From positions 1,472,322 to 1,536,321 of the forward strand of contig NZ_CP036273.1 in NCBI RefSeq assembly GCF_007747215.1: DNA of 64,000 bases. The letters are read 5' to 3'. Position 1 is the stretch's first letter; every line of letters begins with the position of its first letter. Below are positions 44,393 through 54,946 of this stretch, one piece after another. The stretch comes from Urbifossiella limnaea (lineage in GTDB: Bacteria; Planctomycetota; Planctomycetia; Gemmatales; Gemmataceae). The notes under the pieces were generated by a model, which made no database searches, had not been told where the DNA came from, and worked only from the letters and a program-made list of their open reading frames with translations. Made by a program: the position numbers and the translations under genes.

Positions 44393-46096
44393 CTACGGCC
44401 GGATCACCTCACCGCCGTTGCGGGTGAAGTACGCCCGCAGGTCGGCGTCGCTCAGCCCCGCCCGGTTGATCCACCGCACCGACCCGTCGCCGAACAGCGC
44501 GCTGAACTGGCCCGGCCGGCCCGGCGTGTCGAACCGCGGGATCGCGCCCTTCTCGGGGATCAGCAGGTCGTCCGGCTTCATCCACGCCACCGGGTCGCCG
44601 CTCTCCACCACCATGATCGTGTTCGACAGCCCGTCCGTGAACCCCGCGAAGTTCAGCGACTTCACCGCCGGGTCGAACGCCATCCCCTTACCCTTCACGC
44701 CGCGGTAGTGGCTCACCCCGTAGCCGCCCTCCACCTGCACGTTCGTGGCGTTCGGGCTCATGAACACCTTCATCTGCGTCATCGCCAGCTGCTTGTTCGC
44801 CGGCGAGTCCCACGCCTCGTCGCGCTTCACCTGGTTGTACACCGCCTGCTGCTCCAGGTACGGCAACAGCTCGACGCGCCAGCTCAGGATCGCCTTGCCC
44901 GTCTTGTCCTTGATGTCGGCCGGGAACTTGCCGTTCGCGTCGTGGTAGTTGTGGATCGCCAGGCCGATCTGCTTCAGGTTGTTCGAGCTGCTCGCCCGGC
45001 CGGCCGCCTCGCGCACCTTCTGCACCGCCGGCAGCGCGAACCCCAGGCCGATCGCGCTCGCGGCGCCAATTCCGGTGAACTCCTTCGGCACCGTCACCGT
45101 CACGGCCAGGTCGTTGCCGGTGCGGGTGACGAGCTTCGGGTCGGCGAGGAAGTCGTCGGCCCGGCCGATGGCGCCGAGCGCGAACGTGGCGCCGATCACC
45201 TCGGGCAGCTCCTCGGCCTTGCGGGGCAGCTCGGCGTCGGGGTCGTTTAGCTTCTTCTCCATCTCGACCTTGGCCTTCGCCAGCTCGGAGCGGCCGAGCT
45301 TCACCAGGTCCTTCACCGCGGTCTGGGCGGCGTCGGCGGCGGCGGCGTCCTTGTACCCGGCCTTCACGCTGATCACGGCGTCCTTCCCCAGGTCGAGGGT
45401 GACGACGACGGTCTCGGCCTTGAGGATCGGCTCGACGCCCGGCGGCAGGTCGCCGAACGCGCCCGGGGGGATGGGGAGCGCGGCCACGTTCGCCGCGGCC
45501 ACGACCGCCTTGCCGGACGCGGCGAGCTTCAGGGCCGGGGCCAGCGCCCCCGCCTTCGCCACCGGCCGCGACAGGTACTCGGTCATCGCCTCCTTCTCGG
45601 CGATCACGACGGTCTGGTTGTCGGGCATGTACAGGGCCACGTTGTCGCCGCCGGGCGACGTGTAGATCGTCTTGCCGCCGGACTTGCGGGCGCGGCCGTT
45701 CGGCAGGTACGTCTTGGCCACGTCGGCCGGGTTGAACGGCGCCGAGAAGCTGACGATGCCGACCGGCTGCGGCCCCTTCTCGGCGCTCATGAACACGAAC
45801 CCGGTGGCGCGGGCGAGGCTGGTCGGGGCGGGGACGAACTGCTTGTCCAGGTCGGCGATGGCCTTCGCCCCGGCCCGCTCGAACGTCTTGCGGAGCTCGG
45901 CGAACACGTCGCTCTTCCAGACGTCCGCGGCGCGGACGTGGACGAACCCGGCGGCGTCGGCCGGGACGAGGGCCAGCTCCGGGGCGGCGCCGGCCGGCTG
46001 CGCCGCCGCCTCGGGCGTGGGGCTGAGGGCGCACGCCGCGGCGGCGAGTACGGCGGCCACGGCCGCGGTGCGCCGGGCCAGGCGGGGGAGTGTCAT
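44393..46096 (-). CDS. Large DUF1559-containing secreted protein A
   Basis: A 567-residue protein with a signal peptide (ALP-rich, cleavage near AAAQPAG). Residues ~35-340 are a conserved N-terminal domain of unknown function ([22 protein letters not shown] ...). The C-terminal part starts at [33 protein letters not shown] and is the DUF1559 globular domain, with [33 protein letters not shown] and [12 protein letters not shown]. Unlike standard DUF1559 pseudopilins it lacks the [14 protein letters not shown] class III leader and helix. It is a paralogue of the next gene and probably faces the periplasm or cell surface. Confidence 0.85.
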
Positions 46097-46228: not shown

Positions 46229-47809
<1,581 letters not shown>

Positions 47810-48111
47810 GGGGACCCCTCGGGGGCGGGCGACGGACGGGGATTCGCCGGGGGCGGACGAGAATTTCGGCGGCGGCGCCAACCCCGGCCGCCCCGGGGCG
47901 TTGTACGGATGACGCCCGGCCCGGGGTGACGTTTCACCGGTCGGTGCAATCACTACCCCCGGCCCCCGGGGCCGGAACCCGTCGCTATTACCGGGTCGGC
48001 CGGCGGCTCCGCGGTTGTATCCGCCCGTGGAGTGGGTACCCTGGATAATACGGACTGCCCCGCCCGCCGGGCCGGCTCCGTACCGCGCACCGCGCACCGC
48101 CAAGGACTCCC
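47810..48111. other. 302-bp divergent intergenic region
   Basis: It lies between the minus-strand DUF1559 B gene and the plus-strand glycine-rich gene. No gene seen. The plus-strand promoter is probably near 48044-48049 (tggataata, GATAAT as -10, 62 bp before the ATG); no matching -35 is clear. Confidence 0.4.
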
Positions 48112-50725: not shown

Positions 50726-51049
50726 TTACTTCTTCGGCGCCGGGGTGAACACGTTGTCGCGCTCCAGCGGCAGCTGGAAGGCGTCGGCCACCCGCGTCAT
50801 GTAGTTGCACCAGCACACGTACCACGTCAGGTCGGCGGCCCGCGCGGCGCCGAACACCCGCACCAGCTCCGCCCGGTCGGCAGCGCTAAACGCCGCCGGC
50901 TCGCGGCTCAGCTTGTAGGCCAGCCCCAGCGCCGCGCGCTCGGCCGGCGGGAAGTCCGACCAGTCGCCCGTCGCCAGCCGCCGCACCCGGGCGGCCACCT
51001 CGTCCTGCTTCAAGCCCGCGACCGCGAGCAGCATTTCGCTGTGGCCCAT
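50726..51049 (-). CDS. C-terminal AhpD-like segment after the in-frame UGA
   Basis: 107 codons that continue the frame of the 51050-53080 gene directly after UGA: MGHSEMLLAVAGL, then WSDFPPAERAALGLAYKL and NYMTRVADAFQLPLERDNVF. In AhpD/carboxymuconolactone-decarboxylase relatives the helix reads C-x-Y-C-M-G-H-x-E-M, so this piece lacks the catalytic cysteines and is unlikely to be a gene of its own even though its first codon is ATG. Coding bias equals that of the upstream part. Best read as residues 678-784 of a selenoprotein; the alternative is a broken gene tail. Confidence 0.75.
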   Translation of the reverse strand: MGHSEMLLAVAGLKQDEVAARVRRLATGDWSDFPPAERAALGLAYKLSREPAAFSAADRAELVRVFGAARAADLTWYVCWCNYMTRVADAFQLPLERDNVFTPAPKK

Positions 51050-51052
51050 TCA
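51015..51052 (-). promoter_or_regulatory. Candidate selenocysteine UGA and bacterial SECIS hairpin
   Basis: UGA at 51052-51050 replaces the second Cys of C-F-Y-C. Downstream, CUCGC-GGUC-GCGGG (51028-51015) forms a 5-bp stem with a 4-nt GGUC loop; the loop begins 27 nt after UGA. Known bacterial SECIS elements place a small stem-loop with an early loop G about 16-37 nt after UGA, and the E. coli fdhF element also exposes GGUC. The SelB/SelA/SelC/SelD genes are not in this window. Confidence 0.6.
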
Positions 51053-53080
51053 GTAGAAGCAGTCGTTGGTCCGCGTCACCACCCAGAACATCGTGTTGGT
51101 GAAGACGCGGTCCACCTTCGACTCCTCGTAGAACGCCCCCAGGCAGGCGAACCACGCCCGCGTCATCCCCGGCTGGTAGCCGCTGCTCACCGTGTTCCAC
51201 AGGATCGTTTCCGCCTGCATCTTCTCGCGGCCGGTGAGCCCTTCGAACCGCTCCTTCCCCGGCAGCGGGATGCGCAGGGTGCGCGCCTTCTGCGCCGCCA
51301 GGGCCGAGCCGAGCGCGTCGGCGCCGCCCTTCGACCACGCCGGGCTGATCCGCGGGCCGGCGTGCGCCGCGGCCTTCACGTCGTCCCACGGCGGCCGCGC
51401 GGGCGAACTCGGCGCGGCCAGCAGTGCCGGGTCGACGGCCACCGGCAGCGGCGGGTCGGCCCGCGGCTCGGTGCCGAGGCCGCACACGATGCGGTTGTGG
51501 AAGTTGCAGTAGGCGACGGTGTGGACCAGCGCCGTCGTCCGCTCCGGGCCGTACTGCTTCAGCACCGCGGCGAACTCGGCGTCGGTGATGGCGTGCCCTT
51601 CGAGCGACAGCTTGCGGGCGAACGCCACCGCCGGCGCGTCCGCGCCGGGCTCGGCGGTCACGCCCATGCGCGCCAGGTCGCCCGTCGCGGTGGCGACGCC
51701 GTACTTGCTGCCGAGGGCGGCGGCGCAGGCCAGGCGCACCCGCGCGGCGAGGACGTTCCCCAGCGGGTTGTCGGCCCGGTGGAGGTAGTCCAGCTCCAGC
51801 ATCTTCGCCGTGGTCTTCGGCATCGGCCCGGCCAGCTGCGCGGCCCAGCCCGGGAGCGGGAGGTGGTCCAGCGCGCCGCGCACGTCCTTCGGCGGCGCCG
51901 CCTCGAGCAGCGCCATGCACAGCGCCTGCTCCATCTCGCCGGCCTTGAACCCGAACGGCCCGCGGCCGCTCTGGAAGCCCACCTTCCCCTTGGTGTCGAT
52001 GACGTAGAACCGCGCCGGCATGCCGCTGTAGAGGTTCCCCGCGGTGTCGGCGATGTCGTCCACCAGCACCTTCATCCCCGGCTTCAGCTTCGCCTGGAAC
52101 TGCTCGCACACCCGGCCGCGCTCCGCGGTCGTGGTCGGCTGCTTGACGGCGACGCCGACGCGGGTGTTCGACTCCATCTTCCAGCCGTCGAGCGGGTGCG
52201 CCTCGCGGACGTACACCATCACGAACGTGGCCTTGTCCTTGTAGCGCTCGCGCAGCGCGTCCGCCTCGGGGAAGATGGCGCGGAACGGGCCGCACGTGAA
52301 GTTGCCGAACACCAGCACCACCGGCTTCGGCCCCACCAGCTTCGACAGCGTTACCGTGTCGGCGCCGTCGGCCGTCTTCAGGGTGAAGTCGGGGGCCGCG
52401 TCGCCGACCGCCGGGCCTTCCTGGAGCGAGCCGACTTCGCTGCCGTACAGCCCCTTCACGAGCATCGGGATGCTCGGCCCGTCGCCGGGCATGAACGCGC
52501 CGCCGGGGCCGGCCGACAGCAGCGCCGCGCGGAAGTCGTCGGGCGTGAAGGCGTCCTTGCCGCCGGTCGCGCGCTTGAGGAAGGCGTCAAAATCCTCGCG
52601 GGACAGCTTGGAGTCGCCGTCCGCGTCCATGCGGCGGAACAGGCGGTTGACCATGCCCGTCTGCTGGACGTAGGGGTTGCGGTCGGACCAGTCGAGGTCG
52701 AACGGCGTGACCGCGCCGTCGCCGTCGCGGTCGAGGCGGGCGAACAGCTCGGGCGGGCCGGCGAACCTGGCACGCGGCAGCGCCTGGGCGTCCGGCGGCA
52801 GGTCGTGCTTCGCGGCGAGCCACTTCCAGGTGTAGCGGCTCCTGGCGGGGCCGAACCAGCCCTCGCCCGGCCCCATCTGCGACCCCTTGAGGATCGCCAG
52901 GAGCATCTTCACCGCCTCGGGCTTGCGCTTGTCGTCGTACTCCTTCTCGATCTCCGCGGCGGTCGCGGCGGCGGCCTTCGCGTCGGCGTACTTGGCGGGG
53001 TCGAGCTTCGGCAGCACCACCGGCGGGTCGGCGGCACCGGCGACGCCGGCCAACAGGAGCAGGGTCAGGGTCGCTCTCAT
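51050..53080 (-). CDS. EF-hand / deiodinase-like thioredoxin-fold / AhpD-like protein, segment before the in-frame UGA (candidate selenoprotein)
   Basis: 676 residues up to UGA. Signal peptide (MRATLTLLLLAGVAGA); two EF-hand loops (DRDGDGAVTPFD ~117-128, DADGDSKLSRED ~152-163). A type-I iodothyronine-deiodinase-like thioredoxin fold follows (~220-400), with VLVFGNFTCGPF (Cys263 where animal deiodinases have Sec) and VYVREAHPLDGW. Then a first, cysteine-poor AhpD-like region (~430-540) and a second one (~580 on) ending NTMFWVVTRTNDCFY at UGA. The start at 53080 overlaps the previous stop codon as ATGA, implying translational coupling. Likely a periplasmic redox enzyme acting on thiols, peroxides or halogenated compounds; the activity is inferred from folds only. 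Confidence 0.85.
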   Translation of the reverse strand: MRATLTLLLLAGVAGAADPPVVLPKLDPAKYADAKAAAATAAEIEKEYDDKRKPEAVKMLLAILKGSQMGPGEGWFGPARSRYTWKWLAAKHDLPPDAQALPRARFAGPPELFARLDRDGDGAVTPFDLDWSDRNPYVQQTGMVNRLFRRMDADGDSKLSREDFDAFLKRATGGKDAFTPDDFRAALLSAGPGGAFMPGDGPSIPMLVKGLYGSEVGSLQEGPAVGDAAPDFTLKTADGADTVTLSKLVGPKPVVLVFGNFTCGPFRAIFPEADALRERYKDKATFVMVYVREAHPLDGWKMESNTRVGVAVKQPTTTAERGRVCEQFQAKLKPGMKVLVDDIADTAGNLYSGMPARFYVIDTKGKVGFQSGRGPFGFKAGEMEQALCMALLEAAPPKDVRGALDHLPLPGWAAQLAGPMPKTTAKMLELDYLHRADNPLGNVLAARVRLACAAALGSKYGVATATGDLARMGVTAEPGADAPAVAFARKLSLEGHAITDAEFAAVLKQYGPERTTALVHTVAYCNFHNRIVCGLGTEPRADPPLPVAVDPALLAAPSSPARPPWDDVKAAAHAGPRISPAWSKGGADALGSALAAQKARTLRIPLPGKERFEGLTGREKMQAETILWNTVSSGYQPGMTRAWFACLGAFYEESKVDRVFTNTMFWVVTRTNDCFY

Positions 53081-53643
53081 GGCGTGCCTCCGGGGGCGGG
53101 GGTGCGGAACTGGCTGCCGTAGCCCTTCGTGGCGATGCGGGCGCCGATCTCGTCGTACACGGCGGGGTCGGCGGGGGCGACGGTGGCGAGGCCGTCGACG
53201 TAGCGGTTGAACATCGAGAACATGGCGGCGATCAGCACCGTGTCGTGGATCGCCCGGTCGTCGGCGCCGGCGTCGCGGGCGCGCCGCACGTCGTCGGCGG
53301 TGACGAGCCGGCCGTCGCGCCGCACCTTCGCGGCGATGGCCAGCAGCGCCCGCATCTCGTCGTCCAGGTCGGCCGCGGCGGGGTCGGCGAGGACGGCGTC
53401 CACGAGGGCGGCGCGGGGGCCGTACAGGTGGCGGGCGGCGGCCGCGTGCGAGTTGCAGCAGAACTCGCACTCGTTGCCGCGCGACACGAACGCGGCGATG
53501 AGTTCGCGCTCGGCGGCGGTGAGCGTCGAGGGGCCGTGCATGACGGCGTTGGCCAGGTCGTTCAGCGGCCGCTCGGACGCCCGGAAGGCGGCGAGGAGGC
53601 CGATGATCCCCGGCTGGCCGCCGGGCAGGCTGACGTGCGGCAT
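53077..53643 (-). CDS. Carboxymuconolactone decarboxylase/AhpD-family peroxidase-related protein
   Basis: A 188-residue all-helical protein of the uncharacterised peroxidase-related class: LTAAERELIAAFVSRGNECEFCCNSHAAAA with the redox pair Cys59-x-x-Cys62 and His66, then AADLDDEMRALLAIAAKVRRD and the second-repeat helix NRYVDGLA. AhpD-like proteins reduce disulfides or hydroperoxides using the CxxC pair. It overlaps the deiodinase-like gene by ATGA and follows the lipoprotein gene by 3 bp, so all three are one operon. It keeps Cys where the downstream protein has UGA. Confidence 0.88.
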   Translation of the reverse strand: MPHVSLPGGQPGIIGLLAAFRASERPLNDLANAVMHGPSTLTAAERELIAAFVSRGNECEFCCNSHAAAARHLYGPRAALVDAVLADPAAADLDDEMRALLAIAAKVRRDGRLVTADDVRRARDAGADDRAIHDTVLIAAMFSMFNRYVDGLATVAPADPAVYDEIGARIATKGYGSQFRTPAPGGTP

Positions 53644-53646
53644 CGG

Positions 53647-54024
53647 CTACTCCATCGCGCGGAAGACGGTCAGCTTCGGGTCGGTGCCGACGACGTAGCT
53701 CACCGTCTTCTTCACCGGCGAGCCCTGCGGCGGGCGGACGGTCAACTGCACCTTCACGCGCAGGTTCGCGTCCTCCGCCTTGCCGTCGTCGAGGACGGCG
53801 TAGTCGTCCAGCTTCGCGCCGGCCATCCAGTCGAAGTCCTGGGCCACGATCGGCGGGCTGGCCTCGGCCAGCGAGCCGATCGGCCGGCCGGCCTTCCAGG
53901 CGTCGAGCGCCGTGCGGAGCGCGGCGCGGGCCGTGTCCGGCACCACCGGCGCGGCCACCGGCGGCCCGACGGAGCAGCCGGCGAGGAGCAGCGCGGCGAG
54001 GGCCGCGAGGCGGTTAGTTGTCAC
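53647..54024 (-). CDS. Small lipoprotein
   Basis: A 125-residue protein with a lipobox ([13 protein letters not shown]; acylated Cys17) and a compact mature part: [38 protein letters not shown] and [39 protein letters not shown] start at 54024 overlaps the end of the upstream pseudopilin gene by 11 bp, so it is translationally linked to it. Similar small proteins are often found beside DUF1559 genes in planctomycetes; function unknown. Confidence 0.8.
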
Positions 54025-54946
54025 TCGCCACCTCCCCGCCGTTGCGGCTGCCGAGCGCCCGCCACGTCGTCAGGTCGATCGCGTTCCTGGCGAACCGCAC
54101 GGTGCCGTCGCCGTACAGCACGTTCACCCCGCCGGTGTGCCGGCTGCTCGGCGGCATGGTGGACTTGCCGACGACGAAGAACCCGCACGACCGGCCGTTC
54201 GGCGGCGAGATGTGCTGGTAGCGGTGCTGGTGGCTCATCCACGGGGCGCCCATGAACAGCGGGAACTGGTTCGCCAGGTTGCTCGTGTCCACGCCCTGGC
54301 ACGTGTTGTAAGCGGCGACCGCGTCGGCCGGGTCGGACGGGTTGAAGAACACGTCCTCCACCGGGCTGATGATGGCGTTGCTGCCGTCGGCCAGCAGCCG
54401 CTCGCTGAAGAAGGCGGTGTTGCTGGTGCCGTCGATCACGTCGGCGAAGCGGGAGAAGTAGTTCACGTAGAACGGCCCGTTCGCCAGCTGCGGCTGGGGG
54501 ATGACGAACGGCGTCATCGAGCCGGTGTTGGCCAGGTAGTTCGTGGCCCCGCCGAGCGCCGGCATCGGGTTCTCGCGGTCGGACGGGCAGCGGAACCCGG
54601 GGAGCACGGTGTTCCGCGCGGCGTCGTTGGCCGGGTCGTTGATCGGCAGGTTGAAGTTGATGAGCCGGTAGACGTTGTCCTGCTCCATCTGCGGCAGGAT
54701 TTGCGTGAGCACCGAGAACACCCCGGATGGGTTCGGGGCGATGGGCAGCCCGCCGTTCGGGAAGCGGTTGTTGGCGTCGTGGAAGCTGTGGACGGCGAGG
54801 CCGATCTGCTTCAGGTTGTTCTGGCACTTGGCGCGGGCGGCGGCCTCGCGGACCTTCTGCACGGCCGGGAGGAGCAGGCCGATCAGGATGGCGATGATGG
54901 CGATGACGACCAGCAGTTCGATGAGCGTGAAGGCGCGGCGGGACAT
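54014..54946 (-). CDS. DUF1559 pseudopilin-like protein with type IV prepilin leader
   Basis: A 310-residue canonical DUF1559 protein. The prepilin-type leader is [20 protein letters not shown] with Glu5 of the mature helix, then [34 protein letters not shown]. The globular domain has [42 protein letters not shown] and the C-terminal H[15 protein letters not shown] block. It should be processed by a prepilin peptidase and assembled or anchored in the membrane. First gene of the minus-strand cluster running to the cupin gene. Confidence 0.92.

Follow-up and report, generated by a model that had tools for sequence, protein, structure and literature searches.

Is the internal UGA of a long gene in this stretch of the Urbifossiella limnaea genome a stop, or is it read as selenocysteine (Sec)? 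The stretch analyzed (the window) covers 64,000 nucleotides of NZ_CP036273.1 (positions 1,472,322 to 1,536,321), in a genome that consists of one contig of 7.8 Mb. Translation of the minus strand gave one frame of 784 codons (53080-50726) that ends with TAA and contains a sole internal TGA at 51052-51050 (residue 677), in the context CFY-UGA-MGH (i.e., C674-F-Y-U677-M-G-H680 with Sec inserted); the initial annotation had reported the same frame and the same single TGA. The observation is confirmed as real and as more than chance, because UGA occupies this column in 44 of 70 relatives and nowhere else in the matches and a hairpin follows it in 45 of 45 UGA sequences. On comparative evidence, we consider it highly probable that the UGA is read as Sec in a fused 784-residue protein joining a deiodinase-family part to an AhpD-like part (Table 1).

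Table 1. Coordinates of the selenoprotein gene predicted in the window, its parts, and the adjoining upstream gene
Feature	Position	Strand	Basis
Predicted gene of the fused selenoprotein: 784 residues with Sec677 counted, TAA stop	50726..53080	(-)	Translation with one TGA; relatives with the same UGA
UGA predicted to be read as Sec677, second position of CxxU (C674-F-Y-U677-M-G-H680)	51050..51052	(-)	44 UGA, 23 Cys, and 3 Ser/Ala among 70 distinct aligned relatives
Putative bacterial SECIS-like hairpin with GGUC loop (51023-51020; +27 to +30) closed by a 6-bp stem (+21 to +26 with +31 to +36)	51014..51029	(-)	Pairing in 270/270 cells; frozen synonymous sites; 45/45 at -7.5 kcal/mol or lower
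Probable export signal at the N terminus (residues 1-16)	53033..53080	(-)	Judged by eye from the translation
Deiodinase-family part with thioredoxin-like fold: NF038285 over residues 48-393; Cys263 encoded at 52294-52292	51902..52939	(-)	521.3 bits (cut-off, 250); mouse DIO3, E 5.6e-19; best Foldseek matches DIO3 and DIO2
EF-hand region, residues 111-170, two DxDxDG-like loops	52571..52750	(-)	PF00036, 27.2-27.4 bits (cut-off, 25.4); PF13499 pair below cut-off
Tandem AhpD-like (CMD) domain: repeat 1 without Cys pair, repeat 2 with CxxU	50729..51811	(-)	Alignment; model pTM 0.88; Sestrin2, Z about 22
Upstream AhpD-like gene, CEFC motif, TIGR01926; its own end is TGA, with an ATGA overlap with the selenoprotein gene	53077..53643	(-)	94.3 bits (cut-off, 81.8)

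Relatives of the gene and selenocysteine machinery

Relatives were collected by BLAST (E value, 1e-15), and the motif was not used. The Sec column was spanned by 70 distinct matches, with UGA in 44, Cys in 23, and Ser or Ala in 3; the last three rows are degenerate repeats of paralogs (24 to 27% identity). UGA was present at the Sec column, and at no other place in the match, in each of the 44 distinct UGA relatives. The UGA/Cys pairs that the initial annotation had suggested looking for among homologs were present: the column holds UGA or Cys, not random lesions, and the UGA aligns with the Cys of a redox motif. The same TGA was found in a separate assembly (L053; about 81% identity). Against this closest relative, the ratio of nonsynonymous to synonymous substitution rates (dN/dS) was 0.26 for the N-terminal part, 0.33 for the C-terminal part before the UGA, and 0.39 (bootstrap, 0.22 to 0.65) after the UGA. 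We conclude that the stretch past the UGA is constrained protein sequence under purifying selection. Frame breaks were seen in two draft records of Cys-type relatives (L056 and L072).

These data bear on whether the UGA is a true stop, leaving a pseudogene or a truncated protein of 676 residues followed by dead sequence. Such a stop accords with translation table 11 and with the overlapping upstream gene, which ends with TGA. However, even UGA relatives at only 36% identity retain the post-UGA region, which is under purifying selection, and the UGA is the sole stop in those matches, always at the same column; we consider a true stop extremely improbable.

For analyses at the RNA level, 45 distinct UGA sequences and 27 distinct Cys sequences were chosen by the motif C-x-Y-U/C-[MLQ]-G-H from loci L053-L077 and L106-L145 and the window, with identical sequences counted once; these sets include rows from paralogous tandem-CMD genes (3 UGA and 11 Cys). 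In the window, as in 38 of the 45 UGA sequences, the next codon after the TGA is ATG, so that the TGA-ATG might close one protein and open a second of 107 residues, yielding two chains by termination and re-initiation. Against this, the remaining seven UGA sequences have CTG or CTC at the place of the ATG, and the 27 Cys sequences, which are read straight through, have M (16) or L (11) there. No Shine-Dalgarno-like stretch precedes the ATG in the window as judged by eye, and re-initiation would split the CxxC/U motif and leave the conserved hairpin unexplained. We regard re-initiation as very improbable, if marginally less so than a true stop.

UGA is reassigned in some bacteria, and an in-frame UGA without lesions would also be seen if it were read as Trp or Gly or passed by near-cognate read-through. 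The upstream gene nevertheless ends in TGA, and the 26 distinct aligned non-UGA relatives comprise 23 with Cys, 3 with Ser or Ala, and none with Trp or Gly. Moreover, the hairpin accompanies the UGA and the Sec machinery is complete. Profile searches of the same genome detected three genes above their curated cut-offs, namely selA at 542.6 bits, selB at 370.3 bits when its parts are joined, and selD at 384.1 bits, as well as a tRNA-Sec (78 bits) with which ARAGORN agreed (anticodon TCA); a second Rfam match above the cut-off (51 bits) is a tRNA-Ser according to ARAGORN. All four genes that the initial annotation had proposed as a check are thus in place, and insertion of an amino acid other than Sec appears as improbable as a true stop. 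In sum, pseudogenization, re-initiation, and code reassignment were rejected on the basis of the conserved, constrained post-UGA region, the M/L read-through in the Cys forms, and the Cys column together with the Sec machinery. Sec insertion, as the initial annotation had proposed, is supported by the machinery genes, the UGA/Cys column, and a covarying hairpin. Sec machinery has also been reported in Gemmata obscuriglobus (PMC4807772).

The C-terminal part was matched in 50 of 95 family genomes at an E value of 0.001, with many weak matches. An order-wide search matched 45 of 102 genomes at an E value of 1e-20, just one of them, weakly, outside the family, and a plasmid search gave no match. 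Weak distant matches have stops elsewhere; the one inspected (G094:C5:183424) is the natural stop of a paralog. In the G094 genome (100% complete), no selA or selB was over the cut-off, and the full-length copy is a Cys form. In G055, also without selA or selB over the cut-off, a deiodinase-like copy has no TGA. The same hairpin was also observed in tandem AhpD-like paralogs at L058 (3410-4438), L137 (4160-5146), and L138 (3471-4469), in which the UGA lies in CYYULGH or CFYULGH, and the window's own genome carries a Cys paralog at G000:C1:7781372.

A hairpin downstream of the UGA

The initial annotation had described a 5-bp stem with a GGUC loop that starts 22 nt after the UGA, with the loop at +27. 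This hairpin (CUCGC-GGUC-GCGGG, 22 to 35 nt past the UGA) was found as described, and a sixth pair (+21/+36) lengthens the stem; the SECIS (selenocysteine insertion sequence) of Escherichia coli fdhF likewise has a GGUC loop. The six-pair stem was paired in 270 of 270 cells over the 45 UGA sequences, compared with 33 to 54% when the pairing partners were shifted by one to three columns. Both sides had changed in 13 cells (shuffled mean, 2.4): 12 of these changes were at the outer pair, where GC, CG, UA, UG, AU, and GU were all seen, and one was an inner C-G to G-C change. Three of the six pairs were invariant.

The codons CTC-GCG-GTC-GCG after the UGA were nearly frozen, with a third-base entropy of 0 to 0.16 bits at +8 to +11, versus 1.16 to 1.73 bits for the other 11 fourfold columns (44 sequences; L133 was left out as too short). 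Ala was present at +9 in 45 of 45 UGA sequences, and the Cys sequences had Glu (16 of 27) or, in the 11 paralogous ones, other residues. The near-invariance of the hairpin at sites where synonymous change would be free makes this a clear comparative example of a protein shaped by its SECIS.

Published limits for bacterial SECIS elements (bSECIS) are a 3- to 9-nt loop, a 4- to 16-bp stem, a distance of 16 to 37 nt from the UGA, and -7.5 kcal/mol or lower, with a G within the first two loop positions (PMC13188914, figure legend). The window hairpin lies within these limits (4-nt GGUC loop, 6 bp, 26 nt from the UGA, and -9.9 kcal/mol for the local 20-nt hairpin). Local 20-nt hairpins were at -7.5 kcal/mol or lower in all 45 UGA sequences (one exactly at -7.5) and in none of the 27 Cys sequences (lowest, -6.1). 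The identification as a bacterial SECIS is supported by the covariation and the bSECIS constraints, with one amendment: the stem of five pairs first described has a stability of just -5.3 to -5.5 kcal/mol, and -7.5 is attained only when the sixth pair is added.

A search of the window's own genome for a UGA followed by the hairpin core at identical spacing found two places. The reversed control pattern also matched once, and we therefore take the second place (L147; G000:C1:4370337-4370372) as probably a chance match.

Domain architecture and recurrent fusion

The N-terminal part had been annotated as a deiodinase-like thioredoxin fold in which Cys replaces the animal Sec, and this was borne out. 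It matched PF00837 (87.4 bits; cut-off, 27) and, well over its cut-off, NF038285 (Table 1), and Cys263 (a TGC codon) occupies the deiodinase Sec position. Mouse DIO3 was its best solved sequence relative and the best Foldseek match of the full-length predicted model (predicted local distance difference test [pLDDT], 83.3; predicted template modeling score [pTM], 0.65). Two EF-hands had also been proposed; in the region that precedes the thioredoxin-like fold, two loops are visible and PF00036 is over its cut-off at residues 144-170, but the PF13499 pair is short of its own (27.4 versus 30 bits).

As for the AhpD-like domain of the initial annotation, the predicted fold supports it but curated cut-offs were missed (PF02627, 17.8 versus 23 bits; TIGR01926, 40.4 versus 81.8; NF041238, 26.6 versus 175), and we therefore do not file the C-terminal part in those families. 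The C-terminal domain model had a pLDDT of 84.8 and a pTM of 0.88; its repeat 2, with the motif CFYUMGH, matched single AhpD-like proteins at a Z score of about 14 to 16. Human Sestrin2, a tandem AhpD-like fold, matched the model along its whole length (Z, 21.8 to 22.1 over 250 to 257 residues for the three best entries), at 12 to 13% identity. The active Cys of Sestrin is in its first AhpD-like repeat, whereas repeat 1 of the window protein lacks the Cys pair (KYGVA, where Cys relatives have CxYx) and the predicted Sec is in repeat 2.

Among the inspected loci and the window, 15 distinct fused genes were present. Naming the deiodinase site first, three are Cys/Sec (the window, L053, and L127, which is cut by a contig end), five are Sec/Sec (L124, L128, L129, L130, and L135), and seven are Cys/Cys (L055, L057, L059, and L142-L145). 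In same-genus genomes (G001, G003, G004, and G005), the deiodinase-family and Sec parts are separate genes, and G001 also carries a fused Cys copy. In the C-terminal tree, the window and L053 were placed with full support within a group of otherwise unfused Sec proteins, and at least 7 changes between fused and separate and at least 2 between Sec and Cys were counted. The fused/separate count set aside L133, L139, one L056 row, and L066 on grounds of contig edges, a frame break, or parts on opposite strands; the N-terminal tree, with all rows kept, gave 13 such changes. Because relatives occur both unfused and in three fused forms (Cys/Cys, Cys/Sec, and Sec/Sec), the sequences suggest that the deiodinase-like and AhpD-like parts work together.

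The five Sec/Sec relatives (L124, 393-2699; L128, 2651-4945; L129, 6706-9000; L130, 4-2391; L135, 2572-5037) are candidate double selenoproteins with two different hairpins. Of their two in-frame UGAs, the first occupies the deiodinase Sec position, in SFTUGPF or SFTUGPY, and the second lies in CFYUMGH. A second hairpin after the deiodinase UGA was paired in 96.4% of cells over eight sequences (Sec/Sec relatives and kin), with one pair alternating between A-U and G-C; from so few sequences, this hairpin is only suggestive. Deiodinase-like proteins of roughly 210 to 250 residues with a single TGA were observed in many family genomes (e.g., G020:C42, G022:C77, and G006:C6). In both G001 and G011, a separate deiodinase-family gene has a short AhpD-like gene with CFYU directly downstream; at loci L030 (2967-3332) and L186 (2876-3229), where this arrangement was seen in two genomes, the motif reads CFYUTESH (with UGA).

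Several observations weigh against the reading of a Sec-containing fused protein and its history. A loose hairpin shape test was passed by 9 of the 27 Cys sequences. Folding of 44 to 48 nt of the window revealed no excess stability (z, +0.2 to +0.4) and a different minimum-energy fold; thermodynamic folding was dropped as SECIS evidence, as it gave none, and the case for a SECIS is therefore comparative. By a hand tally of inspected loci, a CFY-U copy was present in 32 of the 95 family genomes, and selA was over the cut-off in 30 of these 32. Given that selA is near universal (over the cut-off in 85 of the 95 genomes), this co-occurrence is weak evidence and says little. The two CFY-U genomes without selA over the cut-off are G045, which has selB, and G083, which has neither gene over the cut-off (59% complete). 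The approximately unbiased (AU) test against a single fusion origin was borderline (p, 0.046), for a group that was named after the tree had been seen. Finally, selenium in the protein is a prediction, with Sec insertion supported by comparison, and we infer the role of Cys263, the substrate, and export.

Possible function and relation to known families

With the UGA read as Sec, SelB and Sec-tRNA-Sec would decode 51052-51050 under the direction of the hairpin at 51029-51014, for which the support is comparative. The product would be a single selenoprotein of 784 residues, probably exported to judge by eye from its N terminus. Repeat 1 may serve as a structural partner, and repeat 2, by its motif, would provide a Cys674-x-x-Sec677 redox pair near His680. 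In the chemistry that we envisage, the selenolate would attack an oxidized substrate, and a selenenylsulfide with Cys674 would form. The deiodinase-like thioredoxin-fold domain, with Cys263, may be the reductant or a second active site, a role proposed because the fusion recurs and the genes adjoin. We give roughly even chances to a thiol/selenol reductase for which peroxides or oxidized thiols outside the cytoplasm would be the likeliest substrates.

Each half resembles a thiol or selenol dehalogenase, the N-terminal part an animal deiodinase and repeat 2 of the C-terminal part Bmp8, a debrominase of the CMD family, which raises reductive dehalogenation as another function. Among solved proteins, DIO3 and DIO2 are the closest to the N-terminal part, and Bmp8, which shares the AhpD/CMD fold, gave the best sequence match with a listed stretch on the Sec repeat (E, 1.5e-8). 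Bmp8 takes off bromine reductively, with a cysteine disulfide proposed (PMC5577590), and has been described as a decarboxylase homolog also known to dehalogenate (PMC7918430). However, its fold match (Z, 15.0) is not above those of plain AhpD-like proteins (Z up to 16.4). Bmp8 differs from the window protein in being one Cys-based repeat of about 195 residues with a bromopyrrole substrate (PMC5577590). Bacterial deiodinase-like proteins are thought likely to have another function (PMC1088965), and 14 neighboring open reading frames that were scanned include 6 that match no family and none, among the rest, with a selenium or halogen function. We regard a dehalogenase as unlikely, and peroxide or disulfide reduction as likelier. 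Three DUF1559 (SBP_bac_10) genes are nearby (44393-46096, 46229-48103, and 54014-54946).

Selenoproteins of the AhpD-like, CMD-like, and deiodinase-like kinds are known from lists of 2005 and 2008 (PMC1088965, PMC2398784); the deiodinase-AhpD fusion is new within the literature searched. It is absent from a 119-family table of 2026 (PMC13188914), and the fusion section of PMC2398784 names no such fusion. The remark in the initial annotation that no selenoprotein with this architecture had been described thus holds only within that literature, which includes the PMC13188914 table.

The window protein shares with the AhpD-/CMD-like CxxU selenoproteins of the Sargasso Sea and Global Ocean Sampling (GOS) sets (TIGR01926, PF02627, and NF041238) an AhpD-type domain, a CxxU motif in which UGA takes the place of the second Cys, and a bSECIS just downstream. 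It differs from them in scoring below the three family cut-offs, in its tandem repeats, of which the second alone has the motif, and in its fusion to a deiodinase-family domain. With the bacterial deiodinase-like selenoproteins (PF00837/NF038285) it shares a full NF038285 match, and with DIO3 the motif EAHPxDGW; unlike those selenoproteins, it has Cys263 and not Sec, although five inspected fused relatives have Sec, as predicted, at both sites. NF041537, an arsenite methyltransferase/AhpD domain protein, is likewise a fusion selenoprotein with CxxU in its AhpD domain, but its partner is a methyltransferase, as compared by table row only (PMC13188914).

Read with table 11, the protein ends at residue 676 and lacks its active site. 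It is a doubtful proposition that planctomycetes have here a two-center enzyme, with a deiodinase-like domain fused to a selenium domain like Bmp8, that serves in reductive dehalogenation or as a selenol/thiol relay of two coupled steps. If true, the Sec/Sec, Cys/Sec, and Cys/Cys series would show the contribution of selenium at each of two sites in one chain. The family provides an unusual natural series, in which one architecture has, as predicted, Sec or Cys at either active site, fused or split, within one bacterial family. This series makes two questions testable: why selenium stays at one site and goes at the other, and which function the deiodinase-like proteins of bacteria have.

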